64,000 nucleotides of DNA, from contig OZ038456.1 of the NCBI GenBank assembly GCA_964036195.1, positions 8,184,001-8,248,000 on the forward strand, in the 5' to 3' direction. The notes below the pieces were generated by a model. It was not told where the DNA came from. It searched no databases and worked only from the letters and a program-made list of their open reading frames with translations. This stretch comes from Sphaerolaimus hirsutus (Eukaryota; Nematoda; Chromadorea; Monhysterida; Sphaerolaimidae). How positions within the stretch are numbered: the stretch's first letter is position 1; each line of letters begins with the position of its first letter. Shown here in pieces: positions 15,224-62,950 of this stretch. Position numbers and translations under genes: made by a program.

Positions 15224-15961
15224 TTAAATTATTTTTAAAAACCGCACATCAAGAGAATTATTGGTCATGTGCAGAATGTCATTGTCATCCTGGGGGCAGT
15301 CCCAAACCGTGTAAAATGTGAAATGTCATGCAAAGTGTCAAAAGTCATGTAAAATGCCCTGTAAAATGGCAACCGAGTTGACATTTTGCATGACATTTGA
15401 AATTTTACAGGGCCTGGGATTGTCATCCTGCATTGTCCAGGGATGAGCGCAGCCCCTTTTCTCCATTTTTCTGTATGTTCTGCCCACCCCAATTTCTTCC
15501 ACTAGCTGTGGAAACAATGTGATTATGTCTGGGACTACAATTGCAGAAATTGTTAAATGATATGAGAAGTGATAAGTAGCAAAGGTTGTAAAAGTGGTTA
15601 TTAAAGTAGCAAATTCACTTGTATATGGCCATTGACCAATGACAAAGTTGAATGTCCATTGACAAATGACAAAGTTGAATGACCATTGACAAAGTGAAAG
15701 CATTTGAAAATACAATTTTTCAATTATAAATCTACAAATCATTTTTCTTCTCATATGACAGTTTCCACCTAATAATTATTTTTGAACCACCTTGTAACAG
15801 AAGCCGCCATCCCTCATATCACATTTGTCTCCAGAAACTGTCAAAGGGCCCATTCCCATCAAATTCTCATCCATAGTAGAAGTGGAGACACACTGCATTT
15901 TTGTGCCTGACACAACATTTGTTGCCGCCACCACAAGTAGTGTGACATAAAGATGGCACAC
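15224..15961 (-). CDS. Small secreted Ly6/ET-like protein, split by a family E insertion
   Basis: Exon 1 (15961-15791) starts MCHLYVTLLVVAATNVVSG, a good signal peptide, followed by MQC, GDKC and FCYK. Exon 2 starts at 15505 after TTTCCACAG and gives LVEEIGVGRTYRKMEKRGCA. The FCY...RGC spacing resembles Ly6/ET-module secreted proteins of nematodes; this is pattern recognition only. At 15430 a family E element (15293-15422) with perfect 8-bp duplication interrupts the frame. The sequence beyond it (15284-15224) continues in the same frame to a TAA after DILHMTNNSLDV. Read straight through, the element instead supplies 25 different residues and a stop. If it is spliced exactly at the duplication, the donor would be GA, not GT. 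The uninterrupted product would be about 104 residues. Functional state uncertain. Confidence 0.6.
15293..15422. mobile_element. Family E element with perfect TSD TCATCCTG
   Basis: The 130-bp element starts GGGGCAGTCCC and ends GGCCTGGGATTG on this strand. Exact duplications TCATCCTG lie at 15285-15292 and 15423-15430, indicating a fairly young insertion. Confidence 0.85.
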
Positions 15962-17502: not shown

Positions 17503-20500
17503 ATGTCTGACAACGAGGCTTCAGAGGGAGGTTAGATTTGTGACACTTTTGTAGATCGAGATTTGATTGGGGTTCAAACGGGATCCTCGATCCCGATTAT
17601 TTGAAAAGTCGATCGCGATTCCGAGATTTTTGTAATACCGATCCCGATAGAATTCTCCTAATCCGGATACCGAGAAGATTTTTACCAAATCATTTTGAAT
17701 ATGGCTGCAATGTGAACGTAAACCCCCAGTGTTCAACTTTGCCACTTCACTGGCATCCAAGTGTGTTTTTAGATATTTCTTGTGGAATTAGAGAAAACCA
17801 CTTAATACCATGATTTTGTCCAATCCCGAAAAGACTGAATGCCGAAACTTTAACAATCCCGAATCTTTCTGTGATTTACACATCCCCATTTTGCAAAATT
17901 TGATTTAATGTCATCCAAAATCATATTTTATCCGCAGAGGAGTACGTGGTGGAGAAAATCCTGGAAGCCAAGGGCAAGGGAAAAAGCACACTCTATCTCG
18001 TTAAATGGCAAGGCTATCCGGAGTTTGTTTGACGTTTGAAACATTTTTTTACGTAAATTTTTTTTTGACGCAACCAAGGTTGTTTTCAGAAGCGAAAACA
18101 CTTGGGAGCCGATCGAAAATTTGGACGGGTGCGAGGACGCTTTGAAGGAGTTCAACGATAAGAAGGTTTGTAAAGTATACAGGCTGCTCTGGGGCAACGT
18201 TCTGGGATGCGTTTGCAACGTTCAGCGCGAAATTATTGGCACAATTCCCGCGACATTTTTGAAACATTTGGCAGCATTGCCTCCAGCTATATTTGTATAA
18301 CATAGCCTTCCGTATCTGAACCGTCTTTTGCACCTGCAATTAGGGCGATTTCCAATTTTTCAACGTTGGCAGCAAAGGCAGAAAATTTTACACTCAACAT
18401 TTGAATCTTTCTATTGACAACGAGCAGGCCCATTAGCCATTCATTGCTATTCACTTTGAAATTATCGACTATTATATGTTTTTAGTGGCCTCAAATTCCG
18501 AACAGAGAAAATGCCAAATTTTAATAACACGTAAACGTCGTCGTTACGTTTTCACGTCACCTAAACTGCAACGTTGCCCCACCCCCTTTCCACAGAAACG
18601 TACGAGCACCAGTACCCCCAGTGGGCGGGGCGGGCCGGCCTCCAGGACGAAACGGGCATCCCCAGACGATACTGATGACGACATGCCACTCACCGGCACT
18701 GGCAAGAAGCCAAAAAAGGTGGCTTGTGTTGTACTGTTTTCATTTTTGGGGGAACTGAGATCAGTCGTTCTGGTGCTAGTTAGGGTTCAAACGGGATCCC
18801 GATCCCGGATCCCGTGAAATTCCGGGATTTACCAGTCCCGATCCCGATCCCGAAACCCCAATCCCGATCCCGATCCCGAAATCTCAAAAATACCAATCCC
18901 GATCCCGAAAGTTTTCAAATCCCGATCCCGATCCCGAGAAACTCCCAAGTCCGGGATCCCAATCCGGGAAAAATTAGTGGAAATTATAAAAAGTGAAATA
19001 ATGACGTTTTTGCATGCAAAAAAGTGGATGCAAACCCCCAGCGTCAATTTTATGCCACTTTTCTGGCATCCAACAGTGTTTTGAGACCTTTATGAACAAC
19101 TGTTAATGCCAGAAAAATGGCCAAAATCTCTATCCCTAGAACCCAATCCCGATCCCGGAAAAATGCCAATCCCGATCCCGTGACCCCAATCCCGGCCAAT
19201 CCCGATCCCGATCCCGAAATCTCAAAAAACCGATCCCGATCCCGAAACCCCAATCCCGATCCCGATCCCGAAATTTCAAAAAGTGAATCCCGATTAGCAT
19301 TGAAAAAAATGGCCGGTTTTGAGAAAATATAATTAAATATTATCTCAGAAAATCTCTCAGGAAAAAAATATAATTAAATCTCTTGGGCCATTTTCGAAAA
19401 TATAATTAAATCTCTGAGAAAATCTTTTGCCATTCAAAAAATCTCAAAATCTCTCAACTTAAATTATGATTCAATCGATAGGTATGTATCTCAAGGTGTT
19501 TGAACCAGAGGCATTTGTTTGAGTAGATATTAAGCACCTTATGTGTTGTTTCAGCTTTTACTACTACTTTTTATACTACCACCTACTATCTAAATAAGCA
19601 ACAAAAATATAATTTAGGTTCATTTTTCCTCATAATCGAATACCTTACTTTCACGTGTGAAGCCTACCTTACTTTCACGTGTGAAGCCTAAAAATGCCTA
19701 TCCCAATCCCGATCCCGTGACCCCAATCCCGGCCAATCCCGATCCCGATCCCGAAATCTCAAATTACCAATCCCGATCCTGATCCCGATCCCGAAACCTC
19801 AATCCCGATCCCGATCCCGAAATCTCAAAAAGTGAATCCCGATCCCGATCCCGAAAAGTCAATCCCGTTTGAACCCTAGTGCTAGTCCCGCACCCTGGAA
19901 AGCGGCATGTAAGATTCCATGCAAATTTGTCAACTGATGCAGAATGTCAAAGGTTCAGTACGTAATAAAATATTTTGTTTTCAATTGACATTTTGCATGG
20001 CATTTGACACTTGACTTTACAGGGTGCTGGACTGCCCCTTGGTGGGCAACCGCGGATTTCTCAGACACCGTGTTTTTTGGTTTTTCAACATTTTCAGTGT
20101 TTTTCGGGCTTGTTTTTCGAATTTTGAATTTATTTTCGATCAGGCCAACTTGCGTTTTCCTTTGATAAAATCAGTATGCTGCGTAATTGCACACATTTTT
20201 GTCAGTTTTCACTTTTGTCTCTTTAGGCGATCCTTAAAATTGAAAAACCCTATCATTTTCAATCAACCACGACACCCCCCAAAACCGGGCCAAATCTTTC
20301 GCGTAGGGCGGAGATAAAGCGACCAAAAACGCCGTGGAGCGGGGCGTGCGCGCGGAGAAAATCGTCGGCGCGACGCGAATCGACGAGGAGTTGCACTTTT
20401 TGGTCCAGTTCAAGGGCGGCGAGGAGGAGTTGGTCCAGAATAAGTCCGTTTTGGCTTGGGTTGTTCTTTGAGTGGACTTCAGGGGTCTCCAATGGAGGGG

Positions 20501-26568: not shown

Positions 26569-29529
26569 TCACCCACCAGTGTTCTGCGGCCACAGAAACC
26601 TGCTGGGGTTGCCATAAGTTCTGTCCCCGCACATTTCGAACCACCGCTGACAATTGTTCGCCTCCCATTGTCTATGCGCGTAGCCGTTTTGTCGCTGCAC
26701 GCAGAACTGGCGCATGGATGGGGCTCGGTGCGTGCACTGGCACGTTTGTCTAGGGGGGGGGGGGTAGATTGGGGGTGAGGGGTAGTAGGGATGATATGTA
26801 CTTGGCGCTGACTGCATATACCTGTACCCCTGCACTCGTACACATTTATGTCTCATGTTGGAAGCGTGCCAACGATAATTTTAACCTGCGATTTATCACG
26901 AAAAAAAAACTTTAAAAAGTTACGTAGGTGATTATTGTGGTCAAAGTATAATTTTGAAACAGAAATGACTTTTTGAAACTTATTGTGAAAATGGAAGGCA
27001 TTGAATATTAGGTAGTTAGCACATTTTCATCGCGATATACAATGAATGATACCATATTTTGATGGGGTTCTTGATGAGGCCAGGCCGCTTTACATTCTGG
27101 ACAGTTAACATTCTTCCAAAAAAGTTTTACATTCTAAGATTTCATCATATACGTGTGAGTTTACATGTGCGTCAGTTTACATTCTGTGTGAAAATGTGTC
27201 ACCCTATACCTTCGCGACACTTCACATTAGGGATGGAAAAAAGCCCTTTTTTTAACGGCCCCGCTTTTTAAAAAAAGCATGTTTAAAAAAAAACGCGCTT
27301 TTTTCGATTTTTTTCAAAAATTGTCAAGACATTACCTAAAAAAGCTCCCAAATATGGTCCTGAGTCAATATATACAGGTATAGCAGACAAGTGGCAGTAC
27401 TTGTGATGATATATAACCATAGAATTGCTATGTAATCATTTGATAGCATTATATGTGCTGATTTCTGCCAAAAAAATTCCAATTTTATGTCGACTAATTA
27501 TGTATATCGCCGTTTTTGAATGTTTCTTGACTGCAAGTGAAGTTAGGCATGGAATAGTGCTTAAATTTGGCTATAAAAGATGGCTAATACATGACAGTGA
27601 TGTTTCACAGTGTAGAAAAGTGGAAGCACATTGGCTGGATATTATTTACTACACTGACATATCTCCTCAACTTATTATTACATGATACCATGCAGGAATA
27701 GAAGCAATGCCACTAAAATGCTACAAAACCAATGAAAACAACTACCAATGGCAATTTGCATGTGAAATTATGCACTTGCGTGCAAAAAAAAATGCAGAAT
27801 ACATGGTGCATGAGTACAAAAAATTTTGCCAGCGCTTTTTTTAAAAAAGCGCTGGGATCCTTGCGCTTTTTTTTAAAAAAGCGGCGTTTTTTTAAAAAAC
27901 GCTTGAAAAAAGCGCTTGCCATCCCTACTTCACATTCCACAGGTACATCTTCTTTTTGATGGGGGGGGGGGGTGTTTATCAAATGGGGGGAGGGGGCTCA
28001 AAAAATTTTACCTACACTGACGAAATAGCGCTATAGTACTGGCACATATACAGCAACAGGTACACGATTGAGTGCATTTTCAGTGGTTTATTGTATAGGG
28101 GGACCGATCTGATGGTGCGTGACAGAAAATGCGCGATTGCGCGAAAAAACATCCAAATTTACTTTGAAAAATGCATATACTCGGCGGACATGATACTCTG
28201 CCCTCGCACTGATTTATGTCTCGTGTTGGAAGCGTGCCAATGATTATTAAATCATGCGATTTCCATAAAAAGGTGAAAAAATTCATCGATGTGAATATGT
28301 TAATGAAAAACATTATAACAACAATCAATTTTGTCATCTTTTTATGAAACTCGCACGCGTGACCCATTGTTGGCACACTTCCAGCGGGAACCACGCGTGC
28401 AAGGTGTAAAGTAACTGGAGTATAGCAAAAGTTGCATTTCTCTTAAGTTTTCAGGGGGCAGTCCCTGTAAAGTGTAAAGCAAAGTGTCAAATGTGAAGTC
28501 AAATGCAAAGTCAAATGTCAAATGTAAATAAAAGTGTCAAATGTAAAGTAAAGTGTCTAAGGTAATATAAAGTGTCAATTGTGTATCAAAATCTTTTTTT
28601 TGTATCCAAATCTTATTTATTGTATCCAAATCTTATCTTTCTGCATAAGATTTGGCCACAAAAACATAAGATTTGGATATAAACATAATATACACAATTT
28701 ACACTTTACTTTACATTTCACTTTACATTTGACTTTGCATTTGACTTTACATTTGACACTTTACTTTACACTTTACAGGGCTTGGGACTGCCACCTGGTC
28801 TCACCCCAGGAGCGGGGGGTGTGGCCGCAGCCCCCCACCCTGCCTACACCATTGCCAATAGCCAATGTTATCTCACCTGCAGGCCCAGTCGGCATCCGCG
28901 CACCCATCTATGCAGGTGCGATACTGGTTTCTGGCGTTTTCATCGATGCCTGCGAAGTCCCACTCCAGGTAGTTGTCGTAGATCTGCGTTGGGGGGGGGG
29001 GTTGTTTGCAGCGGTGGTTCTATGCACTCTAGTTGACAAGGACGCATGTGTCAACTGGTTCCCATCCCAATTTGAAGGTTGCTCACGAGCCTACCAAAAC
29101 GTTCGGATGCGAAAGTGTTGACTGTTGAATCATGTTGCAAGTTGTAGTGTTGAAATATTTATTCACAGCCGTAGAATGTAATCACAACCGCAATATTGAT
29201 TTCAACACTACAGCTTCATTTACTACAATCCATTGCTGTCAAAAACTATAATATCTAACTCGAATTCTACAAAAATGTCAACTCACATGTCCTCTGTCAT
29301 AAGGTATTTTAATACCCATAATATCTCCACACCTTTGAACATAATCCGTGCACGAATGCACAATTTTCGTCTTATAATTATCGATCGGAACGTCTTCTAT
29401 CCTATCGCAGTGATATTTATATAGTTCATACCAATATTGGCAATATTCTTCCATGGAATCGATTATATTGCCAATAGGGTGACTGGATACTAATGAAATT
29501 AGTGAAAGCAATGTAAAAAATATGGCCAT
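26569..29529 (-). CDS. Secreted Cys-rich protein with two related modules
   Basis: Three exons: 29529-29287, 28983-28877, 26749-26569, about 176 residues; an upstream in-frame Met at 29547 would add six. It starts MAIFFTLLSLISLVSSHP, a clear signal peptide. The first module reads EYCQYWYELYKYHC ... SCTDYVQRCGDIMG; exon 2 gives DNYLEWDFAGIDENARNQYR and CIDGCADADWAC; the last exon gives TCQCTHRAP, FCVQRQNGYAHRQW and NNCQRWFEMCGDRTYG before a TGA. The C-x-x-[YW]-[VF]-x-x-C-G-D motif occurs twice, suggesting an internal duplication. Intron phases are 0 and 2 and match. The family is not recognised, but the look is that of an extracellular disulphide-rich animal protein. Its start lies only about 100 bp beyond the stop of the VWA gene on the same strand. 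A family E and a hAT element occupy intron 2. Confidence 0.75.
27228..27927. mobile_element. hAT-like MITE, TIR TAGGGATGG, TSD CTTCACAT
   Basis: The 700-bp element starts TAGGGATGGAAAAAAGC and ends GCGCTTGCCATCCCTA. Perfect duplications CTTCACAT are at 27220-27227 and 27928-27935. Near the ends it has AAAAAAGCGC palindromes; the centre matches 1-411 and 1810-2476. It lies in intron 2 of the gene at 26569-29529. Confidence 0.88.
28176..28424. repeat. Family C inverted-repeat MITE
   Basis: Left TATACTCGGCGGACATGATA ... TTGGAAGCGTGCCA; right GGCACACTTCCAGCGGG ... TAACTGGAGTATA. Confidence 0.7.
28454..28797. mobile_element. Family E element in an intron
   Basis: Left end CAGGGGGCAGTCCCTGTAAA, right end GGGACTGCCACCTG. 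The arms consist of AAAGTGTCAAATG / CATTTGACACTTT repeats. It lies in intron 2 of the minus-strand secreted gene without coinciding with the intron ends. Confidence 0.7.
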
Positions 29530-35600: not shown

Positions 35601-38600
35601 TATTAGTCTACAGAACCTTATAAATAGCGGTTTTTGTTGCATTTTTCGACGTCTGCGTACGTTTCAGACGACAATTTCGTACTTGGTTTTCAAAAAATTT
35701 CTTGTGAAATAATAACCCCCCCTCAAAATACCCCCCCTCAAAATACCCCCCCTCGTTTAACCCCCCCCCCTCTCGGGACCACTATGAAACAATCACCCCC
35801 CGGGGGGTATTTCGAGGAAATACGGTAGATATAAACCGTTGTGTTTAGAAAACAATAGGCTAGGAGTGAGTGTGCACTAGTGATGCAAAAGGCACCCTGG
35901 GGTCAGTCCCGGATCCTGTAAAATGTCAAATGTTCTGCAAAGTGTATAAAGCCATGTAAAATGCCCTGGAAAATGGCAAGTGTACTTTTGATACTTCGCA
36001 TGACATTTGACATTTTACAGGGTCTGGGATTGGCACCTGTAATATGTCACTGCATGAGGCTTTTTGAGCTAATCAGGCTATGAATTCACAGCTGCATCTT
36101 TGGAACTGAATATTTCAGAGACTTCCCGGATAATTTCAATGCGTAATCATAGCTATGGCTGCAGCTATTCTTAAACTGCAGCCAATTTTTTTGTAAATAC
36201 TTAGGTATTCACTAGTAATACTCCGGTTACTTTACACCCTGCACGCGTGGTTCCCGCTGGAAGTGTGCCAACGATGGTTAACGCGTCCGAGTTTCAAAGA
36301 AGATGACAAAATTGATTGTTGTTATGATGTACATATTCACATCGATGAATTTTTTTCATATTTTAACGGAAATCGCACGATTTAATAATCATTGGCACGC
36401 TTCCAACACGAGACATAAATCAGTGCGAGGGCAGAGTATCACGTACGCCGAGTATACCGTATTTAGCACTTTTGCTTTCAAGCACACTATTTTACATACA
36501 AATTATTTCTATTTTGAATAATTTCATTGGTTTTGTGGAATTTTTTGGTGCAAAAGCTACATTTCTAGAGTGTAATAAGCCATGACATGTGCACCCTGGA
36601 ATGTAGAGAAGTGTATAACTTGTGGTCGTGCTTGGAGTGCTCGTGCTCGTAGTCGTGCTCGGTGTAGTTGTTGTGGTACTTGGTGTGCTTGTGGTACTCG
36701 GTGAACTAGTTGTCGTACTCGGGATGGTTGTGGTACTTTCTGTGGTTGTGCTAGTTGTGGTACTCGGTGTGGTTGTGGTACTTTCTGTGGTTGTGCTAGT
36801 TGTGGTACTCGGTATGGTACTGGTTGTGGTACTCGGTGTTGTACTGGTTGTGGTACTAGGTGAACTACTTGTGGTACTGGTTGTGGTACTTGGTGTTGTT
36901 GTGGTACTTTCTGTGGTAGTACTAGGTGTACTAGTTGTGGTACTACTCGTGGTGCTAGTGGTGGTACTCGGTGTGGTACTCGTTGTCGTACTGGGTGTAC
37001 TAGTGGTACTCAGCGTGGTGGTGGTACTCGGCGTGGTCGTGCTAGTTGGTGTGGTACTAGTCGTTGTACTGGGTGTGCTTGTGCTTGTGCTGGAGCTCGT
37101 CGTGGTGGTACTCGTGCTCGGCGTGGTGCTCGTACTGGTGCTCGTGCTTGTCGAAGACGTGCTCGTGCTACTCGTCGATGTGCTGCTCGTGCTCGTGCTA
37201 CCTGATGTTGTCGTCGTGGTCGCATTTGCAGCTGTCGTGGTGCTAGTCGACTTGCCTGAGTGTGTCCTGACTGTTATTTTGGTAAAAATTACTGATGCTA
37301 ACGTGATAGGAATTCCAGAAATATGAGAGTTTACAATAATATAACAGAGTACAATTTCGGAGAACCTCCCAAATAGAAAACTAAATCTCTCTAGAAAAAT
37401 TATAAAAATCTAAATTTCAACTCAAAGAACATTAACAACATTAAAAGTGATTATATCTCTAGTAAAATAAAAGTAAAAATATCAAAAACTACCTATAAGA
37501 TGTAAAAAATTTATTCTAATCCTCCAAGATTTTTGAAATGCTAATTATGGTGTCAAACCAATTCTATGATTTAATCACCAGATTCTATGGCGCCACCAGA
37601 GCATAGGGTAAATTTTGGGTTGCATTTTGGGGTGAACGCTCCTTGGGGACGACCCACACCCAAAATGCTACACCAATTTCCGCCATGCAATGAGTCTTTC
37701 CGCTATGCTATGAGTCTTTTTAGCAGGACACTGCCACACTGAATCCTGATCGACAGCTCGACTAATTTTATCAAATCAAATAAAATTAACACAAAAAATT
37801 TGCAGACCATTACCGTATTTCCTCGAAATACCCCCCCCCCCTCGAAATACACCCCCCCCCTCGTTTGACCCCCCCCCTCTCGAGACCACTATGAAACAAT
37901 CACCCCCCCCCCTCGAAATACCCCCCCCAAATTGAGTGTAAAGAGAACGTACATCACAAATATGGCAGTTTGTGTTCTGCGTAGTGCAGAACACACGTTA
38001 AAACAATGTCGGAATCACGTTAGAACAGTGTACATACCATCTACATACTAATATTAGTCTACAGAACCTTATAAATGGCGGTTTTTGTTGCATTTTTCGA
38101 CGTCTGCGTACGTTTCAGACGACAATTTCGTACTTGGTTTTCAAAAATTTTCTTGTGAAATAATAACCCCCCCCCCCCTCGAAATACCCCCCCCTCGTTT
38201 GACCCCCCCCTCTCGGGACCACTATGAAACAATCACCCCCCGGGGGGTACTTCGAGGAAATACGGTATATAACTATACCACTGCCTTCTCGATTGATTTT
38301 CACACAATAGGCCCCGTTACTCACAATATATTATAAACCACTCGCACCCTGTAAAAAATAGCATTCACCTGGTGTAGTAGTACTCGTATTCCCACCAGTA
38401 GTAGTAGTAGTAGTATTGCCAATGCCAATTGGCGCCGTGCCAGCACCCAATATGGCGTAAGCCACGCCCCCTCCGATCATGGCCAGGATTAAGAGCGCCA
38501 GCAAAGCGAGTAATAGCAGCAGCCACAGGGGGATGCACAGAAATGGTGCCGCTGCCACCGGAGTTGATGCACTCGACACCTGCTTGTATTCATGTAGGGG

Positions 38601-39432: not shown

Positions 39433-39732
39433 CTGGGGGAACTCCCAGAACATGTAAAATGCCCTGTAAAGTGTAAAATGTCATGCAAAGTGTTAAAAGT
39501 CATGTAAAATGTCCTGGAAAATATAAAAAAGTCATGCAAAGTGTCAAAAGTCATGTAATATGCCGTGGAAATGGCAATCAAAGTTTTACCAAGGTTTTTT
39601 TGTCATTTTTCATGAACTCAGAAACTTTGCATAACATTTGCCATTTCCCAGGGCATTTTACATGACTTTAGGCACTTTGCATGACATTTACCATTTTACA
39701 GGGCACTTTACAGGGTCCGGCAGTGGCACCTG
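39433..39732. mobile_element. Family E element just upstream of the VWA start codon
   Basis: Left CTGGGGGAACTCCCAGAACA, right GTCCGGCAGTGGCACCTG. On the minus strand it reads CCAG|GTGCCACTGCC ... CCCCCAG| and ends about 50 bp before the VWA ATG, so it could be a 5' UTR intron. Confidence 0.65.
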
Positions 39733-41004: not shown

Positions 41005-42945
41005 TAGGGTGTCAAAAAATTTTTTTTATGGAAAACGGAAAGGTAAATTTTTTTCACTTTACGGAAAACGGAAAACGAAAAGGTAAAAAAAATTTTCTGC
41101 CGGAAAACGGAAAGGTAAAAAAATTTCACTCAGCGGAAAACGGAAAACGGAAAGGTAAAAAAAAATTGTCAGCCGGAAAACGGAAAACGGAAAAATGAAA
41201 TGCCGGAAAACGGAAAACGGAAAGCAAAATTTTCACGGAAATGGAAAAAAATAAAGTGAAATTAGCACAGTAATAGAAAAATTGGCAGAAGGAAAACCTG
41301 CATGCAGGTTTGCCTGTTTGGCTTTGATTGTGGTAGCTGTACATTCTGCAACTATGGATCATGCCTGTAACTTCACTTGTAGTTCAAGCTTAACTGAACC
41401 AACAAAAAATCATCAAAAAGTAGCCATAGTGGCCATAGGAAAGGAAACACTACGACAATTTCACAGTCTAGAAGCAGTGGGAATCACTGATGACCCCTAT
41501 GCAATTGATGACAACATTGCAGAGGAGATGATAATAAATAGCATAAAATTCAACAACAACAACAAACAATACTATATTGACTGGCCGTATATCAGTGACC
41601 TGCCCACGGGAAAAGCAGAAGCCTTGGTGCGGTTTAAATCACTGATAAGAAGATTCAACAAAGATCCAAACTTATTCAAACAATACCGGAAAGTTTTGGA
41701 CAACCAACTAGAAAAGGGAATAATTGAGATCTGTGACGACACAACAGATAACAAGGGGATTCATTACCTGCCACACCAGCCAGTAATCACACCAGGCAAA
41801 TCGACATCATGCAGAATCATGTACAATGGGTCGGCAGGTAAGCCCAGTTTCAACGAGTGCCTTTTTAGAGGACCAATTACAACACCATTAGCACTGGGCC
41901 TACTCCTGAGGTTCAGGGCAGGCAATCTAGCATTAATTGCCAATATTGAAAAGGCATTTTTGCAAATAGGATTGCATGACCAAGCTAGAGACTACACACG
42001 ATTTTTCTGGCTGAAAGATGCCTCAAAACCAGCAACTGAAAATGACTTAATAGTACTTTGTTTTAAACGCATACTGTTTGGACTTGTCTGCAGCCCAGCA
42101 AGCAGTCATAAAATACCATTTAAATGTGACAATAAACAATATGAATGAATATGAAGAAAATGAAGGGGAACGAAACCAGTTGGCAATGATAATAAACAAC
42201 ATTTACGTCGATAACTTCATCATGAGTGTCACAAATGAAGTTGAAGCTTTAGAACTATATTACAAAGTCAAAGCTTTATTTAACCAATGTTCTATGAACA
42301 TGAGGGAATGGCTGCCAAACTCCAGATCAGTCATGAATGAAATAGCAGAAAACGACAGGAGTCCAAAGGTGAATAAAATTGTTGCAGTAATGGGCATGAA
42401 ATAAAATCACAGAACGGACATGCTGGCAATATCAACACCAAAATTGCAAATTGACAGCATCACAACACCAACCAGACAAAACTTGAATAAATTATTGGTG
42501 TCAGCATATGACCCAATTGGGTTCACAGCACCTGTTTCACTGACCCTGAAATCCCAGTTGTCAATGCTGCTCCAAGAGACAAAAACAACACAATGGGATG
42601 AGCCAATTGAAGATAAATACAGATTTGAAAAACAATGGAAAAATGCCAGAAAACTGAAAATCGAGCCAGAAAATGGAAAAATGGCCTGGTAAAACGGAAA
42701 CGGAAAGGTAAAAATTTTTCAGCCGGAAAACGGAAACATGGGCCGGAAAAACGGAAACGGAAAGGTAAAAATTTTTCAGCTGCCGGAAAACGGAAAACGG
42801 AAAGGTAAAAATTTTTCGGCTGCCGGAAAACGGAAAACGGAAAGGTAAAATTTTTTCGGCTGCCGGAAAACGGAAAACGGAAAGGTAAAAAAATTTCCTG
42901 CGGAAAGGCGGAAACGGAAAACGGAAACGGAAATTTGACACCCTA
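41005..42945. mobile_element. Composite hAT-like element carrying a BEL/Pao pol fragment, TSD CTTGCGAG
   Basis: Starts TAGGGTGTCAAAAAA and ends AATTTGACACCCTA. Perfect 8-bp duplications CTTGCGAG are at 40997-41004 and 42946-42953. Both ends are arrays of GGAAAACGGAAAGG-type repeats (about 41028-41240 and 42690-42930). The centre is a retrotransposon pol fragment with no LTRs or gag visible. Confidence 0.85.
41282..42692 (+). pseudogene. BEL/Pao retrotransposon pol (reverse transcriptase) fragment, broken
   Basis: The BEL/Pao superfamily pol encodes protease, reverse transcriptase, RNase H and integrase; only the region around the reverse transcriptase is present. Seen in frame from 41282: LPTGKAEALVRFKSLIRRF, QLEKGIIE, HYLPHQPVITPGK, then LLLRFRAGNLALIANIEKAF, all typical of BEL/Pao. 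The frame is lost near 42090-42146 and resumes in other frames at 42078-42404 and 42420-42692. The catalytic YVDD box reads YVDN at about 42207. The 5' and 3' parts of pol, gag and LTRs are absent, and the ends dissolve into GGAAAACGG arrays. It is a dead fragment inside the composite DNA element. Confidence 0.87.
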
Positions 42946-45224: not shown

Positions 45225-48200
45225 ATGGCTGTTTTGATGTGAGTTTTTTATTCTTTGTTGAGCTGCAATGACAATTGGTAACTAGGTATGCATATAAAGT
45301 TTGGAGATCTGTATAATAATCCACTATTGTGTATCTAATTTTGCAGTGTAATTTTACATTAGAATTTTATGTCTAGCTGCAATCGCAGCTTTATCGTCAT
45401 AAAATAGTGTCAGCTTTGTGGCCATTTCAATGACTTTTATCGAATGCAAGTGCGTTTTATCGCCCTCCAATCACTAAAATCACATTTTACCCACCCAACA
45501 CCCTCAACACAGGCCAGCCCCCAATCCCATACTGTTCACACTACTGACATGCCTGTCAGCAAGCATCAAATCCACACTTGGTCAGCTGGAGCCGCCCAGA
45601 TTTGACAGCCCCCCACCCAGTGGCCTGAACTTGACCAGTGGCAATGATTTTGGCCCGCCTAGTGCCGGTCCCCCCAGGTGACAGTCCTGAACCCTGTAAA
45701 ATGCCCTGGAAAATGGCAAATGTCGTGCAAAATTCCTTGGAAAATGGCAAACACGTTTTGCAGGGTATTTTACATGACATTAGACACTTTGCATGACATT
45801 TTACTTTTTTCATGGCATTTTACAGGGTCCGTGAGTGTCCCCAGATTTTTGTTCACCACTGTAAACAGTGGGGCTGACCAGTCTGACCACAGTCGGCAAG
45901 CTAATGAAGATAATGAGAGGTCGGTCATGCAATGATTTAATTTATTTTTTCTTTAAGTTCAATTTATTCAATGGAATTTTTGGAAATTTTACAATCTTTT
46001 TCCACGGTAACAGTGAATCAGATTTCTTAAAACTGGTGTAGTTTATTGAAGTTTTTAAACCGAACGATTTTTAAAGTGTTTCGAAAAAACGTAAACCCGC
46101 TGTCGAATTAAACTCTGGCAGTAAATTCGAACAACTCGGAAACTTGCTATAATGTTTGTTTGCCATCGCTACTTTTCTGTGCAATTGAATGAATTTAAAA
46201 ATTTATGTCGCAGTTTCGACGTTGATTTCAACGATCTACAGAAACGCGCCATTCAAAAGGATGACGGTTATAGCGATAGAACTGAGAGAATATCACATTC
46301 TGCACTGGACAAGTGTTTGTTTTCGGACAATTTTGTTGTTGCTTCCTACTTCATAGCAATTGTACCTACGTAGGTATAGTCATGAATAAGTTCGACACAA
46401 TTTGTCAAATGCCCTGTAAAATACGAATTTACGCACTTAACACTTTATTGGGTGCGGGACTGCTCGCTGCTATGTAAAAGCGATTTAAAATAAAAAGAAA
46501 ATGGTTGCACTTGCTTGCACCTCATTGTATCCTTAAAGAGCTTTTCGACTAAAAAGTCCCTTTTTCGATTTTGTATAGGTATATCAGTTGTATTTACCGT
46601 ATTACCTGGAATTAACCCCCTCGGATAAGCCCCTCTCGAATTACCCCCCCGCAAATTTTGCTGGCGAAATAATAAACCCCCATGGGGGTATTTCGAGGTA
46701 ATACGGTATTTTTTTAAGGCTTCGATCTCATTTTGATTTCCTCAATCTATTCAAGAATATTATGCAAATTAAAAAATGACATTTTCCATTACATAGATGA
46801 ATGCGGCGATCGACACAAAGTGTGCGACTATGATGAAAGTTGCGAACGACTATGTTTCTGGGACGAATACACGAAACAATTCATTGGATGCAAGGTAAAC
46901 GGGTGCACTTTACAATAGGTACACTTTTGAGAGATAATTGATAAAGATTTCCAAACTCTATCAATGGCAATTCCTACACACACTAGTTGACAAGGACACC
47001 AAATGTCAACTGGTTCCTGACCCAATTCAGAAATTGCTCACGAGTCGACGAACGACGTTCAAATGCAAAGGTGTTGAATAGTGTTGCAAATGAAGCGGTT
47101 GTGTTGAAAAAAATATAGGGGGTATGTGCAATGAGCAAGGCGGGCATTACCTAAGTGCATATATTTATAGGTAATACAATACTGGGTAGTGTTCCTCATC
47201 AGCAAGCTTTAAATTGGGACGGGAACCAGTTGACCTTTGGTGCCCTTCTCAACTGGTGTGTGTAGGGCTAGCGTAATGTCGCAAATACCATTTCCATCCT
47301 ACATCGCAATTCAGGTGGCGTGCGTGAAGCAGTACCCCCGCGTAAAGTTGCTCACGTACAAATCCATACTCCCCCTGCCCTACAAAGATTACAACCCGCC
47401 CACGGGGGGCCGCAGACCGGTCCCCAGAGCACCCCCGCCAGAAACGGTGCGTTTTTCAAATTGTGTTTTTTAAAGATGGCAAAAAGAAAGAAAAAATCTT
47501 GATAACGTTTTTGTATTTTCGGGTTTTATTTAACCCGTTGAGAAGGATCGACGGTTAAACATCGACTTTTTTTGCAAAATGCGTGTAAAATGAGGAAACA
47601 CAATTACAAACATCAATTCCACATTCATCATAAGCGCAAATGTGTCTGAGGGTGCAAGACATAAATATGTATTCAAAAACCTGCAGAGATATTTTGAAAA
47701 TGCGATAATTTAAGGGGAAAATATCAGTCAAGTCAAAAATATTGCAAAAGTTCGAAAATTCAAAAAGGTATTCCCGAAAAATCGAAAATTCGATAACTAG
47801 GTATTTTAGAAAAAAAATCGAATGGATATTCTAAAAAAACACAAACATCAAAACACTATCTCCAGAGGGGTTTTGCCATCGTCACCCACACAACACTCAC
47901 TCAAACAGCCCCCCCCCCCATCAACAGTACGATCCGCGAGGCATTCACGCTCCACACCCGCCACGCGGGGGTCCCTACGACTACAACAATGGGGGTGGCA
48001 ATGATTACCACGACTATCACGACTACGACAGCCACCCCCCGCATCCGAGACCCCGCCCGCAGAACTTTCCTCCCCCAGCTGGTGCCCGTCCCAGACCTTG
48101 TAGAATGTTCTGTGAAATGTGAAATGTCGTGTTAAGTGTTTTGATGTCATGGAAAATGGCCTGTCAAATGTGAAATGTTATGTAAAATGTCATTCAAAGT

Positions 48201-49107
48201 GTCAAATACAATGTAAAATGTCCGGTAAAATGCCAACAATTTTACAGGACATTTTACATTACTTTTCACACTTTGCGCAACATTTGGAAGTTTTCAGGGC
48301 ATTTCACATGTAATTTTGCATTTTCGAGGGAATTTTGCATGACAATTCCCATTTCACAGGACATTTTACAGTGTCTAGGACTGCCCCCAGGAGGTGGACA
48401 ACCTCAATTGCACTCTCACAATGGGGGGCCACCGCACACGCACCCCCACCCCCATCACCAATTGGGACCGAGGGCCGTGGTCAGCGGAGGTCCCATCGCA
48501 CCTGCGGGACGCGCTGGGGACCACGGGCCTGGAGGGGTACCCGGGGGTGCGGGACCAGTGCTGCCCGATAGTGCATACCATAGTGAGTAAAGGGGGTTAT
48601 TAAGGTGGCGTAGAAAATGTGTAGTGTAGAATTACGAGTAAATGGTTGTTGACAACTTGATGTAAGATTAAAGGTGTAATACCAAATTCAGTCTTGGCAA
48701 ATTACAAATACACAATGACATGTTGAAAGCACTAACAGACATCTACAGGTGTAGAAATATTATCTAAAAAGATACGAATTTGTATGTCAACTAGTGTCTG
48801 TGGGCCCTTTAACCAGCGTTCATCCAGGGTCCATTTCCAGTTGACCCAACAGCGTTAGCGCCGCATTCACGCGTCAACTCATGTCAACTCAAATCCCACA
48901 ACCCACGCAGACACGTGCTCCTCGACGCTGGACTGCAACCGGGGCAGCGAGTGCTGCTATTACCGCCAGTGCGGCTACGTGACCCGCTACGACCACGAGC
49001 ACGAGTGTACCGTTACCAAGAGGTGCCTACACTCGTGCCAGCCGCACCCGCATAACTTGCCCTTTGTGGGTGTCAAGGCTAAGGCGAAGGCTAAGGCGAA
49101 GAATTGA
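45225..49107 (+). CDS. Secreted Cys-rich and His/Pro/Gly-rich protein, two introner-type introns
   Basis: Nine exons with matching phases: 45225-45238, 45513-45677, 45845-45919, 46214-46314, 46797-46894, 47315-47446, 47928-48081, 48391-48582, 48911-49107; 375 residues. It starts MAVLM then PAPNPILFTLLTCLSASIK, a signal peptide split by intron 1. A central Cys cluster (CGDRHKVCDYDESCERLCFW, then GCK and VACVKQYPRVKLL) is followed by a disordered Pro/Gly/His/Tyr-rich region (GGPYDYNNGGGNDYHDYHDY, HTHPHPHHQLGP). The C-terminal cluster reads CSSTLDCNRGSECCYYRQCG ... CTVTKRCLHSCQ, WAP/dickkopf-like in spacing but not assigned, then a Lys/Ala tail before TGA. Introns 2 and 7 consist entirely of family E elements. 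The family is not recognised; an extracellular matrix or cuticle-like role is a guess. The exon at 46214 is the least certain. Confidence 0.78.
45678..45844 (+). mobile_element. Family E element forming a complete intron (167 bp)
   Basis: The exon ends CCCCCCAG, then GTGACAGTCCTGAACCCTG begins the element. It ends CATTTTACAGGGTCCGTGAG then TGTCCCCAG, and the next exon starts ATTTTTGTTC. Donor GT and acceptor AG are at the element's edges, and codons join as PPR|FLF in phase 2. Confidence 0.82.
46597..46706. mobile_element. Short family A MITE in an intron
   Basis: TA-flanked; left CCGTATTACCTGGAATTAAC, right TATTTCGAGGTAATACGG. Confidence 0.7.
46975..47268. repeat. Family D inverted repeat in an intron
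   Basis: Left CACACACTAGTTGACAAGGA, right CTTCTCAACTGGTGTGTGTAG; inner CCAAATGTCAACTGGTTCC and GGGAACCAGTTGACCTTTGG. Confidence 0.65.
48082..48390 (+). mobile_element. Family E element forming a complete intron (309 bp)
   Basis: The exon ends CCCCCAGCTG, then GTGCCCGTCCCAGACCTTG. The right end reads GTCTAGGACTGCCCCCAG and the next exon starts GAGGTGGAC. The flanks CAGCTGGTG and CAGGAGGTG agree at 7 of 9 positions, as expected for a decayed target duplication. The arms hold CATGGAAAATGG/CATTTTACA-type inverted repeats. Confidence 0.85.
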
Positions 49108-49401: not shown

Positions 49402-49571
49402 CCCATCAGGTGTCAGTCCCGTACCCTGTAAAGTGGAAGGTAAAGTGTCAGATGTAATGTAAAATGGCATACAAATATGTCCATTGTCATGCAAAGTGTA
49501 AAAAAGTCCAATAATTTTTTATTATTTTGTTACATTTTACACTTTTATCTACATTGCGGAACTGGCACCAG
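49402..49571. mobile_element. Family E element with CAGGTG/CAGTTG flanks
   Basis: Left ATCAGGTGTCAGTCCCGTAC, right GCGGAACTGGCACCAGTTG. The left edge again carries AG|GTGTCAG and the right edge CACCAG|. Confidence 0.65.
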
Positions 49572-56100: not shown

Positions 56101-59100
56101 GGAGTAATTTGAGGAAATATAGTATTTACTCAGTAGATGACTAGTTTTGTATTTACTCAGTACTCACTCATTCTGTTGTGAAACAGGAGCATCCAGGAAC
56201 ACAATTGGTTCGGCTCCATCCATCAGGCCCGAAACAAAAGACAATACTGGAGTATCTCAATATGGAACAGGATCAAGCAATGGCAGGCCAGCACAGAAAC
56301 CTCAGCCACCAGCACCAGTTCAGACTGGGCAGTATGGAGCAGATTCTAGCAATAGCAGGCCAGCACAGAAACCTCAGCCGCCAGCACCAGTGCAGACTGG
56401 GCAGTATGGAGCAGATTCTAGCAATAGCAGGCCAGCACAGAAACCTCAGCCGCCAGCACCAGTGCAGACTGGGCAGTATGGAACAGATTCTAGCAATAGC
56501 AGGCCAGCACAGAAACCTCAGCCGCCAGCACCAGTGCAGACTGGGCAGTATGGAACAGATTCTAGCAATAGCAGGCCAGCACAGAAACCTCAGCCGCCAG
56601 CACCAGTGCAGACTGGGCAGTATGGAGCAGATTCTAGCAATAGCAGGCCAGCACAGAAACCTCAGCCGCCAGCACCAGTGCAGACTGGGCAGTATGGAGC
56701 AGATTCTAGCAATAGCAGGCCAGCACAGAAACCTCAGCCGCCAGCACCAGTGCAGACTGGGCAGTATGGAACAGATTCTAGCAATAGCAGGCCAGCACAG
56801 AAACCTCAGCCACCGGCACCAGTGCAGACTGGGCAGTATGGAGCAGATTCTAGCAATAGCAGGCCAGCACAGAAACCTCAGCCGCCAGCACCAGTGCAGA
56901 CTGGGCAGTATGGAACAGATTCTAGCAATAGCAGGCCAGCACAGAAACCTCAGTCTCCAATACTTGTAAGCTATGGTCCCACAAGTAGCAAATCAAAATA
57001 TAGACTTGTTTTCTTTCATGGGAGTAATGATATACCTGGAGGAACTATGGAGTCTGGGACAAATTCTGGCAATAGCAGGCCAGTGCAGAAACCACAGTCA
57101 GCAGAAACAGTTCAATCTGGGCAGTATGGAACAGATTCTAGCAATGGTAGGCCAGCGCCAGCACCAGGGCAAAGACCAGCACCAGCACCAGGGCAGAGGC
57201 CAGCACCAGCACAAGGTTACAGACCAGCATCAACATCAGGGCAAATACCAGCACCAAGGCAGAGGCCAGCACCAGCACCAGTGCATAGACCAGCACCACC
57301 ACCAGGGCAAAGGCCAGCACCAGGGCATAGGACAGCACCAGCACCAGGGCATAGACCAGCGCCAGCACCAGGGCAAAGACCAGCACCAGCACCAGGGCAG
57401 AGGCCAGCACCAGCACCAGGGCAAAGACCATCACCAGCACCAGGGCAGAGGCCAGTACCAGCACCAGGGCAAAGACCAGCGCCAGCACCAGGGCAAAGAC
57501 CAGCACCAGCACCACGGCAGAGGCCAGCACCAGCACAAGGTTACAGACGACCATCAACATCAGAGCAAATACCAGCACTAGGGCAGAGGCCAGCACCAGC
57601 ACCAGGGCATAGACCAGCACCACCACCAGGGCAAAGGCCAGCACCAGCACCAGGGCAGAGGCCAGCACCAGCACCAGGGCAAAGACTAGCACCAGCACCA
57701 CGGCAGAGGCCAGCACCAGTACCAGGAAATAGACCAGCGCCAGCACCAGGGCAAAGACCAGCACCAGCACCACGGCAGAGGCCAGCACTAGCACAAGGTT
57801 ACAGACGACCATCAACATCAGAGCAAATACCAGCACCAGGGCAGAGACCAGCACCAGCACCAGGGCATAGACCAGCACCACCACCAGGGCAAAGGCCAGC
57901 GCCAGCACCAGGGCAGAGGCCAGCGCCAGCACCAGGGCAAAGGCCAGCACCAGCACCAGGGCAAAGGCCAGCACCAGCACCAGGGCAGAAGCCAGCACCA
58001 GCACCAGGAAATAGACCAGCGCCAGCACCAGGGCAAAGACCAGCACCAGCACCACGGCAGAGGCCAGCACTAGCACAAGGTTACAGACGACCATCAACAT
58101 CAGAGCAAATACCAGCACCAGGGCAGAGACCAGCACCAGCACCAGGGCATAGACCAGCACCACCACCAGGGCAAAGGCCAGCGCCAGCACCAGGGCAGAG
58201 GCCAGCGCCAGCACCAGGGCAAAGGCCAGCACCAGCACCAGGGCAAAGACCAGCACCAGCACCAGGGCAGAGGCCAGTACCAGCACCAGGGCAAAGGCCA
58301 GCACCAGCACCAGGAAATATACCAGCACCAGCACCAGGGCATAGACCAGCACCAGCACCAGGGCAAAGGCCAGCACCAGCACCAGGGCAAAGACCAGCAC
58401 CAGCACCAGGGCAGAGGCCAGTACCAGCACCAGGGCAAAGGCCAGCACCAGCACCAGGGCATAGACCAGCACCAGCACCAGGGCAAAGGCCAGCACCAGC
58501 ACCAGGGCAGGGGCCAGCACAGCAGCCACGGCCTCCTGGTGTACAAACATTACACCACCATCATACTACTACCACTACCACAACTACCAGGAAACCACTG
58601 CCAATAATACCTGATTGTGAGTTTGGTTTAGTACATTGATAAATTTAGTACTGTATTTCTTCTAATAGAATGGCATACCTCCAATAGAATGGCACTTCCA
58701 ATTGAATGTCATTAAAAAAGTAGACAAAAAATAGAACAGCGTTCTTCTATTAGAAGAAATAGATCTATGCTGGAGGCTGCTCAGCTATCTATCTATACAA
58801 GACACAAAAAGTTTGGCAAAATTTTCCTTTTTCTTCAGGCATTTTGTTCCTGGCGCCGCCATAAATAGCGCCAAGCGCCAAAAGCGCCATGGCGCTTTTC
58901 TTGGGCATGGCGCCACAGCAAAATAGCGCCATGGCGCTTTTTACTTTGGCGCTAGCGCCAGGCGCCAGCGTCATGGCACTTTCACATCACTAGCTCTAAC
59001 TACCTGACAACTAAAATAATTTTTGATATAAAAGTGCATTTAGTTTACAAAATTAGAGCCAATAACCGGGCATGTGGGGAAACTGATAACAACTGCTGCA

Positions 59101-62100
59101 ATGCATACTCAAAAGTGTCTACAATCTCAAACATTGCAGGGTTTTCCAGCGTCTGGGGTCAATGGTCCAGTTGGACCAGCTGCCAAAATCACCAGGGCAA
59201 CAGGAAACGATTCAGGGTCAGGGGTTGCACTCATGTGCCTGGATACAGGTGCACTTAAATATATTAATGAGGCGTGTAATTCTAAAAGTCGACAAGTCCA
59301 CAAAATGTGATTTTGAGTAAATCATATTTTATGTTTCCTACTTGTCCACTTTTAGAATTAAACACCTCAAATATAATCCAGGGACCGCATGCTATGCATT
59401 TTTCTGAAAGAAACACTTTTCATGACGTCATCATTGATAAATTAAAATTGTTTGAAAAAAGAGCAAATGTTTCAGGAGAAAAACGTTCAACTGTTTAGCA
59501 GGAGAGGACAGGACAGTCAGTTATTTTCTGTTCAAATATGACATCACAATTAAGTAAAAAAAATTTCAAAAGAAGAAAAAAACGTTTCAAGTACCTACCT
59601 ACCCTCACATTGTACCAGTCGTATGTTATAATAGCCGTTTTTCTTCGTTATGCCGTTTATATCCATGACTCATGTAGCCACCCGTGGTATCGTTGTTGAA
59701 ATGAAAATGAAAAGAAAAACATTCACCCTCGCTTGAGCCGGAATTAGAGCTCAGCGTCGATTCGACGTAAAATGACGACGTAAAATGACGTCGTAAAAAC
59801 GAGTGTGGATCATGCTACGGGTCTACAATTTTCTAAGGATAATATATGAATCAATACCTTAATTGTGTCCAATACTTAGTGTTATCAGCCACAACTAAAG
59901 CGAATTGAAAAATTCAATTTTTATCATTCTACGTCATCATTTTACGTCAGGGAACAAATTTTACATTTCATGTCAATGATTGCAAGCAACCGTTGACGTG
60001 AAGTGTAAAGTTAGTTCCCTGACGTAAAATGATGACGTAAAATGATAAAAATTGAATTTTTCAGTCTCGCTTTTTTCGCTCTAGTTGTGGCTGATAACAC
60101 TCAGTATTGGACACGATTAAGGTATTGATTCATATATTATCCTTAGAAAATTGTAGACCCGTAGCATGATCCACACTCGTCTAATTAATTTTACGACGTC
60201 ATTTTACGTCGTCATTTTACGTCGAATCGACACTGAGCTCTAATTCCGGCTTTAAGTGTGAAAGTGCGTGCATAAGTATCCTGCTCGTATCGTTATCGAC
60301 TACGACATAAGTAATTACCGTATTTCCTCGAATTACCCCCCGGGGGTTTATTTTTTCAGAGTGAAAATTTTGATAGAAAAAGGTGAAAAATGCAACAATA
60401 ACCACCATTTATAAGTTTTTACAGCCTTTTATAAGGATGTAGATGGTATAAACAATGTTCTAACGTAACACAGTAAGTGTTTTGAACGTCTGTTATGCAT
60501 TTCCCGGACCACAAATTCATAGTGCCCATTTTGAGGGGGGTATTTCGAGGGGGGGGGGGTATTTCGAGGAAATACGGTAAGTACTTTTGGATGCAATTTT
60601 TGCTGTTCGCGGACTATGCCTTTCTTCAATTTTTTTAATTCAAATTTTAAATTTTTTTTCAAATTGCAGCTGCGAGGGGGAAAATTTGGAGACCGACGAT
60701 TGCCTGCCAGAAGACGTTGGCACACTATTTCAAACTTTTTTCACTTAAATAAGTATTTAAAAAAGTTTTTAAATACGTAGTTGAAAAAATTCCATAATTT
60801 CCATTTTCAGCTGACAACCACCACTGTGCCAGGATACATAGAGCAAAAGAGGCAGGAGTGGCAGCAGGAGCATGGAAATTCGGAGGAAAACGGGAAGGAA
60901 CTTCTTTTAATGGAGTATCCCGACCAAATTATACACTCATATACTCCACCAAACGGTAAGAATTCTTATTCAACGTCTTGTTGTCGACACGTTATATGTA
61001 TAATTTTCCATCGATTGATTCATGTATCTTGTGTGAAAAATGTGAAAAAATTATGTCATTGTGACATTTTGAATTAAAATCCACTTATTTCTTGTAAAAA
61101 GCCGATAAAGAAAACAAAACATATGCTGAATTATGCCAAACATCAGATCTATAAAAATCTGAAACCGAAAACAAACTCTATTCTGGTCTTAAGTGACAAG
61201 TATTTACACTCAGGAATTGAACTGTCACTTTAATGTTTACTTGCAACTTTACTTAACTTACCATTCACCACTGATCACTTACTATTAACACTGCTGCTTC
61301 GAAAGTCGCTGCACAGATTTCCAAGGATTCTGGAGGCCCATTTACAATGCAGTGCCGCAAACCCTGCCACCGGTCGAGATCATCACCACAACAACACCTA
61401 GCTATTGGCAGAAACACACACCGAAAATACCTGAATACAGACCAGGTGCTACTTCCAGACCCTGTGATATGCCCTGTAAAATGTCAAATGTAATTCCAAG
61501 TGTCTCCAGGGGGCAGTCCCAATCAACGATGGAAAAAACACAGAAATTGAACACAGAAACTCATTGAGTTTCTGTGTTTTTGTTTTACACAGAAACACGG
61601 AAACTCACAAATTTTGAAAAACTCAAAACTCAAATGAGTTTTTTTTTGGAGAACACAGAAACACAGAAACACGGAAACACAGAAAAGTTTTTTGAGTTTT
61701 TGAGTTTTTTTCAGCGAAGTGGTTGAACACATTTTCAGAATGCACATGAATTCAGTTAAACTAAACAAGATAAGATATGCATGTATAGCATGTAAATATG
61801 TACATTATGTATTCATATTTTATGATGTAACAGAAAATAAATTAAAGATGGCATGCACATCTCCTGGTGGACATGTTTAAATATAGTTGTAGTTCAAATC
61901 AGTTCTGTAGTCTTCCATACAGTGCACATCCATTGAAGAATTTTGGAGTACTGCATAAATTGTCGTTTGTGAGCATTTTGTTGATGCTGGTGTTGTTATG
62001 TAGGTGGATGTCCTCATTGAGGACATTTTTATGGACTTTTTTGACATTTGAATGAATACACATATGTTATGTGGGGTTAAAACATGTGCAAAACCAATAT

Positions 62101-62950
62101 TTTATAAGAAAACTGCTGTTTCCACATCAAAATGCTGTAAATCAGAATTTTTTGGGGAAAACTCGAGTTTTTTGGACAAAAACTTGAGTTTTTAGAAAGA
62201 AACTCAAAAAACTTGAGTTTTAACAAAAAACACAGAAATAAAAACAGAGTTACTCAAGTTTTTTTCGGTAAAAAACTCAAAACACAGGTATTCATTTTTG
62301 AAAAACTCAAAACACAGAAAGTGTTTTTTTTGGAGAACTTACCCATCGTTGGTCCCAATCCCTGTAAAGTGTAAAGTAGAGTGTTAAATGTAAAGTCAAA
62401 TGCAAAGTAAACTGTCAATTGTCATGCAATGTTCAGTAATAAAATATTTTTTTTAATGTTATTGACACTTTACTTTGCATTTGACTTTACATTTGACACT
62501 TTACTTTACACTTTACAGGGCTTGGGACCGCCACCAGTCCTCTAGAATGCCCTGGAAAATGGTAAATGAATCTACAGGGCATGTTATATGACTTTTGACA
62601 CTTTGCATGACATTTGAAATGTTACTGGGTATTTTTTTACTTTTGACACTTTGTATGATATTCAACATTTTACAGGACATTTTACATGCCTTTTGGCACT
62701 TTGTATGACATTTGCCACTTTTCAGTGCATTTTACATGGCAGTTGACACTTTACATGACATTTGACATTTTACAGATCAGTTTACATGACTTTTGACACT
62801 TTGCATGACAGTTGACTTTTTCCAGGGCATTTAACTGGGTCTGGGAGTGCCCCAGGTTCACTTTACTGGCAGTACAGGGAAAGTCTGATAAAGCTGGAGC
62901 ACAGCAAGTCAAAGCAGCAACAAAATAGCGGAATTTCATACAGACAGTGA
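53115..62950 (+). CDS. Secreted proline-rich repeat protein with thrombospondin type-1 module
   Basis: Eight exons, phases matching: 53115-53175, 55135-55281, 56187-58616, 59140-59248, 60670-60715, 60811-60955, 61317-61445, 62856-62950; 1053 residues. Signal peptide MALILAVASLLFHVGNVAS. A short region (HLRYWEKERIPTTLAPRLRY) precedes the giant repeat exon: about ten 24-residue units (QYGADSSNSRPAQKPQPPAP...), then about 55 units of the type RPAPAPGQ, ending in a His/Thr run. Exons 4-5 encode a TSP1 module with the W-x-x-W-x-x-W motif (WGQWSSWTSC), basic RKRFRVRGC and CEGENLETDDC; four Cys are visible. The tail is Tyr/Trp/Pro-rich (SYWQKHTPKIPEYRP, SLYWQYRESLIKLEHSK) and ends at TGA 62948-62950. 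It is probably an extracellular matrix protein, possibly elastic or glycosylated. The last intron is a family E element. The repeat length is likely polymorphic. Confidence 0.85.
53334..54522. mobile_element. Non-autonomous hAT, TIR TAACGATGG, TSD GTATACAG
   Basis: Left TAACGATGGCAAACAG, right TAGCCATCGTTA. Perfect duplications GTATACAG are at 53326-53333 and 54523-54530. The arms are made of AATTTTCGAATTTTCG repeats; a family A MITE (about 53806-54202) is nested in the centre. It lies in intron 1 of the TSP1 gene. Confidence 0.9.
53806..54202. mobile_element. Family A MITE nested in hAT
   Basis: Left part has GGGTATTTCGAGGGGGGTGT, right part GGCGGATATTTCGAGAAAAT; the core GTTCTGTGTTTCCCAGATC matches other family A copies. 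Confidence 0.6.
54872..55117. mobile_element. Family B MITE abutting a coding exon
   Basis: Left CCGTATATCCTCCAATAAGA; right GGGGGTCTTATTCGAG, ending only about 18 bp before the exon at 55135. The centre has a GGCGCC-rich palindromic block (about 54980-55085). Confidence 0.55.
55527..55575. repeat. 18-bp tandem repeat, about three units
   Basis: ATCATGTATGCAATGTAC is repeated in tandem within a family A-like region. Confidence 0.7.
55656..56128. mobile_element. Composite family A MITE region
   Basis: Left CCGTATTTCCTCGAAAAAAA, an internal second start CCGTATTTCCTCGAAAAACC at 55849, right GGAGTAATTTGAGGAAATA. It ends shortly before the big repeat exon at 56187. Confidence 0.6.
56262..56955 (+). 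repeat. Coding 72-bp minisatellite, about 10 units
   Basis: Units of 72 bp, each beginning near CAGTATGGAGCAGATTCTAG, encode 24-residue repeats within the TSP1 gene. Units are nearly identical, differing mainly at GCA/ACA (Ala/Thr), which points to recent homogenisation. Confidence 0.92.
57147..58535 (+). repeat. Coding 24-bp minisatellite with higher-order units
   Basis: Units of about 24 bp (GGGCAAAGACCAGCACCAGC) encode RPAPAPGQ. A higher-order block containing CAAGGTTACAGACGACCATC recurs at about 57537, 57795 and 58077, i.e. every 260-280 bp. Confidence 0.92.
58840..58980. repeat. GGCGCC-rich palindromic block
   Basis: Dense GGCGCC/AGCGCC motifs (GGCGCTAGCGCCAGGCGCC), similar to 5050-5130, 10525-10605 and 54980-55085. 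Probably the core of a degraded element of the CAGGGACG family, in the intron after the repeat exon. Confidence 0.5.
59736..60253. repeat. Long foldback element with AGCCGGAATTAGAGCTCA ends
   Basis: Left GAGCCGGAATTAGAGCTCAG, right GAGCTCTAATTCCGGCTTTA. Arms of about 200 bp pair almost perfectly and hold multiple TGACGTAAAATGACG-type motifs. It is inserted within a family I repeat in a TSP1 gene intron. Confidence 0.82.
60318..60577. mobile_element. Tc1/mariner-like family A MITE
   Basis: TA-flanked; left CCGTATTTCCTCGAATTACC, right TATTTCGAGGAAATACGG. It lies in a TSP1 gene intron. Confidence 0.78.
61508..62535. mobile_element. Second family E element nested in the intron-forming copy
   Basis: Left CCAGGGGGCAGTCCCAAT, right GCTTGGGACCGCCACCAG. 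It is interrupted by the hAT at 61524-62351. Its AAAGTGTAAAG-type arms resemble 28454-28797. Confidence 0.78.
61524..62351. mobile_element. Non-autonomous hAT, TIR CAACGATGG, TSD GTCCCAAT
   Basis: Left CAACGATGGAAAAAACACAG, right TTACCCATCGTTG. Perfect duplications GTCCCAAT are at 61516-61523 and 62352-62359. Inverted relative of 29704-30819 lacking its nested MITE. Confidence 0.9.

Follow-up and report, generated by a model that had tools for sequence, protein, structure and literature searches.

A candidate introner from a family of CWG-flanked transposons in the nematode Sphaerolaimus hirsutus

We analyzed a 64,000-nt stretch of DNA from the nematode Sphaerolaimus hirsutus (contig OZ038456.1, positions 8,184,001 to 8,248,000; hereafter the window), in which a short palindromic repeat, family E, recurs. 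One copy, at 45678-45844 of the window, is probably an introner, that is, a short non-autonomous E transposon that inserted into an exonic CAG and is removed as an intron. We infer its splicing from reading frame and splice sites, and the gain of the intron likewise from sequence. The case is most likely a real instance of a known phenomenon, here in an animal. Coordinates of all features are collected in Table 1.

The intron-sized E element and its host gene model

The sequence from 45648 to 45874 reads ...CCCCCCAG|GTGACAG...GTGTCCCCAG|ATTTTT, with the donor CAG|GTGACAG and the acceptor CCCCAG| that the original prediction had named. Once these 167 nt are removed, the two open flanks are continuous in phase 2 (AG|A), as had also been predicted, and retention gives an immediate TGA. 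The edge donor matches MAG|GTRAGT (the donor consensus, applied to all three proposed E introns considered here) at 7 of 9 positions and is the best GT within the first 60 nt. Inverted arms at 45677-45731 and 45788-45842 show 80% complementarity across 55 nt. Both ends of the copy score 26.8 bits with a terminal profile built without it; this profile was trained on 18 ends from other E copies, one of which had been entered one base out of register. The profile found 40 sites above 9 bits in the window; across 20 first-order Markov sequences, the mean was 4.7 and the maximum 7. The repeat had been thought to occur about 15 times elsewhere in the window, and we recognised 17 other copies or fragments, on both strands.

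The original prediction equated the intron with exactly one transposon whose ends double as splice sites. The intron is indeed flush with the palindromic repeat; however, given a 3-bp target duplication (see below), the element proper would be 164 bp long, ending at 45841, and the last CAG would be duplicated target. The element thus appears to supply the GT of the donor, whereas the AG of the acceptor would come from the 3' CWG copy, so that the double role holds for one end only.

At the level of the gene model, introns 1 and 6 of the host gene are both E copies edge to edge. Retaining any single one of the seven introns introduces 6 to 15 stops, and in all seven exons that were scored (all but exon 3) the chosen frame scores highest among the three. 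Another frame for exons 6-8 was considered and replaced, as the adopted frame has the better codon score and phases. The RNAs of introns 1 and 6 are each predicted to form a long hairpin, at the base of which the splice sites lie (z of -7.84 and -10.16, respectively). The hairpin arises because the element is a palindrome, and may or may not aid splicing.

An E copy at 61446-62855, in another gene, is a third and weaker case. Its removal joins two open stretches in frame; we consider it weaker because another frame scores better on the 5' side. Its coding score is poor. The proposal that family E is an animal introner thereby gains qualified support: the window is animal DNA, in that the stitched exons of one of its genes match kindlin (fermitin) structures, the copy at 45678-45844 looks like a mobile element from end to end, and a second exact intron, perhaps also a third, accompanies it.

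The copy at 61446-62855 contains a second, nested E copy, which is itself interrupted by a foreign element (61525-62351). The foreign element has the ends AACGATGG...CCATCGTT and lies between two direct copies of the 9-bp GTCCCAATC, at 61516-61524 and at 62352-62360; similar sequence is also present near 30.6-31.0 kb.

Target site and end polarity of family E

CAG or CTG adjoins 21 of 26 aligned E ends, where the background is 0.028; excluding the copy at 45678-45844, the count is 19 of 24. Ends were aligned at the inner inverted repeat, and two of the 26, both with CWG, were added by hand. The set does not include the 15293-15427 left end or either end of a copy near 33.1-33.25 kb, which carry small insertions, nor ends that could not be located. 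The pattern had first been spotted by eye in the same ends, so the count is not a blind test. The five ends without CWG are one of a copy at 3 kb, both of 19879-20038, one at 49335 and one at 62853, the last of which misses CWG by a single base.

The nested antisense copy provides an empty-site test that is independent of which CWG ends were chosen. With 3 bp removed, the interrupted copy fell into gapless register with the copy at 39436-39729, agreeing at 39 of 49 positions, whereas removal of 0-2 or 4-8 bp gave at most 28 of 49. When the empty site was searched against the rest of the window, agreement was 34 of 44 at 3 bp versus at most 28 at other lengths. The CWG at the ends and the empty-site register together suggest that family E most likely consists of DNA transposons, with a 3-bp CWG target that is duplicated on insertion. 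Eight copies have CWG on both sides, and five of these carry the identical triplet. In the other three (14407, 28455 and 48082, the last being the second exact intron) the W differs, which counts against a clean duplication there unless one side has mutated.

At two minus-strand copies (15293-15427 and ~33.1-33.25 kb) the edges carry direct repeats longer than 3 bp (CAGGATGACAAT and TTGGTGACACT, respectively), and the left terminal bases of both copies deviate from the usual ones. These longer repeats possibly reflect another kind of insertion event, or flanking sequence that was copied later. A longer target duplication as the rule was rejected, since the empty site and most flanks fit 3 bp.

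The two ends of an E copy differ. Nine of the 11 two-ended copies have one GTG and one GGG end, one has GTG twice and one has neither. GTG starts 12 of 13 left ends and GGG starts 10 of 12 right ends; since the GTG end was used to define left, the counts show that the two ends of a copy are unlike but do not establish polarity independently. GT is lacking at one more end (46466), whose side is uncertain. Because the 13 left ends include copies outside gene models, GT at the left looks like a property of the family. With GTG at the left and GGG at the right, insertion into CAG reads CAG|GTG...CCC CAG|, and the opposite strand of an inserted E has neither GT nor AG at its edges. In a weak check of interior orientation, the copy at 45678-45844 agreed in sign with all five reference copies, and other pairs were mixed.

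Three scans of viral contigs with E patterns gave no match. A scan of genome contigs with an E pattern gave one bacterial match, which is about what chance predicts for 19 fixed bases in 257 billion.

Alternative readings and a possible route to new introns

Several observations weigh against reading these copies as introns. Exon edges of the host model were chosen by hand, and this choice accounts in part for the GT-AG borders of all introns and for the open frame. Coding scores are -10.4 bits for exon 1 and -1.2 for exon 2, each just short of the 95th percentile for random stretches (-8.4 and 0.1, respectively). The host protein had no relative in Pfam or PDB, in searches of which one used an earlier frame for part of the protein and another covered 297 of the 376 residues. 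Competing AGs precede the proposed acceptor by 19 and 9 nt in intron 1, by 31, 19 and 12 nt in intron 6, and by 44, 30 and 8 nt in 61446-62855. Use of the AG at -19 in intron 1 breaks the frame; that at -9 keeps it and, from our reading of the sequence, would add three codons. The edge donor of intron 6 has 5 matches to the consensus, versus 6 for an internal GT, and that of 61446-62855 has 6, versus 7 internally.

The moderate scores of exons 1 and 2, the host protein without relatives and the splice-like sites inside the element would all suit a repeat lying in unspliced or non-coding DNA, where the flanks are not exons, or other splice sites are used, and the intron fit is due to chance. 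Yet retention of the introns gives stops, the eight-exon frame closes at a stop codon, and exons 5, 7 and 8 reach coding scores of 13.1, 21.1 and 26.9 bits, so we regard this account as unlikely. Alternatively, E could have inserted into an older intron that later shed all sequence of its own, leaving the element alone. E copies are frequent in the window, and a fragment of one lies inside a kindlin intron (~7.4-7.5 kb), in keeping with such a history. It becomes improbable when set against the CAG on both sides, the exon that begins directly after it and the recurrence of the exact fit in the same gene model, since deletions stopping exactly at both edges twice are unlikely. The GT and AG at the edges are also what would be seen had the introns spread as RNA via reverse splicing, with the inverted ends incidental, and fungal introners have been so interpreted (PMC9860276). 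E copies, however, lie outside gene models and on both strands, an antisense copy is nested in another with a 3-bp target duplication, and CWG adjoins most of the aligned ends; we give this route very little credence.

The reading we favor is insertion of E into an exon at CAG, with duplication of this 3-bp target. The 5' CAG and the GTG of the element would then form the donor CAG|GTG, and the C-rich right end of the element and the 3' CAG would form the acceptor CCCCAG|. Splicing out the element with one CAG would restore the original exon, its length unchanged, and the hairpin formed by the palindrome would have both splice sites at its base. At a guess, TTTTAC in the right inverted repeat could contain the branch point, its A lying 22 nt before the last base of the intron; a branch point at this usual distance would explain the skipping of the AG just after TTTTAC. 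A PIF/Harbinger-like (NuwaI-type) transposase may have mobilised E.

Introners form many families, most of which show signs of DNA transposition, and occur disproportionately in aquatic lineages; among 835 animal and land-plant genomes, they were found in only two animal groups (Gozashti et al. 2022, PMC9860276). Like the proposed E introns, they are repeated introns derived from short elements, and one example carries its donor and takes its acceptor from a 4-bp duplication, which is the same logic as that proposed for E. A CWG duplication, as seen in E, is not described in the portion drawn on here, and the terms Harbinger and PIF are absent from the main text.

Such a duplication is known from NuwaI, a group of the PHIS superfamily (PIF/Harbinger-like). 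As characterised in the part of PMC4482050 used here, NuwaI has 5'-CWG-3' duplications and ends that are usually GGG, and occurs in 16 animal genomes and in animals only. The CWG duplication is common to NuwaI and E. Of the E ends, the right ones mostly start with GGG and the left ones mostly with GTG. Splicing is not mentioned for NuwaI in that part of the source, whereas E is proposed to act as an intron. No open reading frame (ORF) for a transposase or Myb/SANT protein was seen with E, whose copies are non-coding, although the ORFs of the window were not searched systematically for transposase. Because no transposase was seen, the placement of E in the NuwaI or PIF/Harbinger-like group is provisional. 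Introns of the larvacean Fritillaria borealis are reportedly linked to small transposons. These are likewise animal introns whose possible origin from mobile elements is under discussion, in the part of PMC13326754 considered here; unlike them, the proposed E introns are GT-AG.

Tentatively, CWG-targeting Harbinger-like transposons might be pre-adapted to become introners, with E as an animal family that did so and gave rise to introns in one or two genes of the 64 kb. The CWG target would be half a proto-splice site, and its duplication would write CAG both before the donor and at the acceptor. A single left-terminal change, from GGG to GTG, would then suffice for new insertions into CAG, in sense, to be spliceable immediately. 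This route from target choice to splice site looks new; such a family may be included in the 2025 survey by Gozashti and others. The origin of new introns is an old question. In the case of E, both splice sites would be accounted for by the combination of target choice, length of the duplication and terminal sequence, and the idea of proto-splice sites would be linked to a named type of transposon. As a testable rule, elements that duplicate CWG and have a GT end would be expected to give rise to introns.

Other E copies and neighbouring features

Table 1. Positions of the proposed introns, the host gene model and copies of family E in the window
Feature	Position	Strand	Basis
Proposed intron 1, 167 nt (E element plus 3' CAG)	45678-45844	+	sequence, aligned ends, frame
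E element proper, 164 bp; left end GTGACAG, right end ...GTGTCCC	45678-45841	+	end profile, aligned ends, arms
Putative target duplication, 5' copy, CAG	45675-45677	+	aligned ends
Putative target duplication, 3' copy, CAG, source of acceptor AG	45842-45844	+	aligned ends; 3-bp length via empty site
Host gene model, 8 exons, 376 codons plus stop (49105-49107); 5' end not found	45513-49107	+	frame, GT-AG
Host exons	45513-45677, 45845-45919, 46214-46266, 46797-46894, 47315-47446, 47866-48081, 48391-48586, 48911-49107	+	hand-chosen edges
Proposed second exact E intron (intron 6), 309 nt, phase 0	48082-48390	+	aligned ends, gene model
E element within intron 6; flanks CTG 48079-48081, CAG 48388-48390	48082-48387	+	aligned ends
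Weaker case: E copy enlarged by nested E copy and foreign element, between open stretches, phase 1	61446-62855	+	aligned ends, frame
Flanks of the weaker case: 5' CAG 61443-61445; 3' ...GCCCCAG	61446-62855	+	aligned ends
Nested E copy, interrupted by foreign element; CAG 61507-61509 and 62535-62537	61510-62534	-	aligned ends, empty-site test
E copy, CTG / CAG flanks	14407-14495	+	aligned ends
E copy; CAG right flank; left end deviates (GATGACAAT, no GT)	15293-15427	-	aligned ends
E copy, CTA / TTG, CWG at neither end	19879-20038	+	aligned ends
E copy, CAG / CTG flanks in sense	28455-28794	-	aligned ends
E copy, CAG / CAG flanks in sense	35900-36036	-	aligned ends
E copy, CAG / CAG flanks in sense; empty-site reference	39436-39729	-	aligned ends, empty-site test
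E copy, GTG at both ends, CAG / CAG flanks	49410-49568	+	end profile, aligned ends

If spliced exactly, the minus-strand copy at 15293-15427 would join two open stretches via a GA-AG intron. The copy at 39436-39729, also on the minus strand, ends ~55 nt upstream of a minus-strand ATG (MAGPATAYPF...) and could be an intron of a 5' untranslated region.

Elsewhere in the window, donors at the ends of kindlin exons include GAGGAG|GTAAGT and GAGTCAG|GTGCGG. Retroelement-like ORFs lie at 41255-42404 (+), with the look of a reverse transcriptase by eye; they are presumably BEL/Pao, and one of them, searched against Pfam, gave no match. A long open frame at 56141-58639 (+) encodes proline-rich tandem repeats (PAPGQRP and similar), and downstream of it is a thrombospondin-like stretch with a weak Pfam match below the cut-off.
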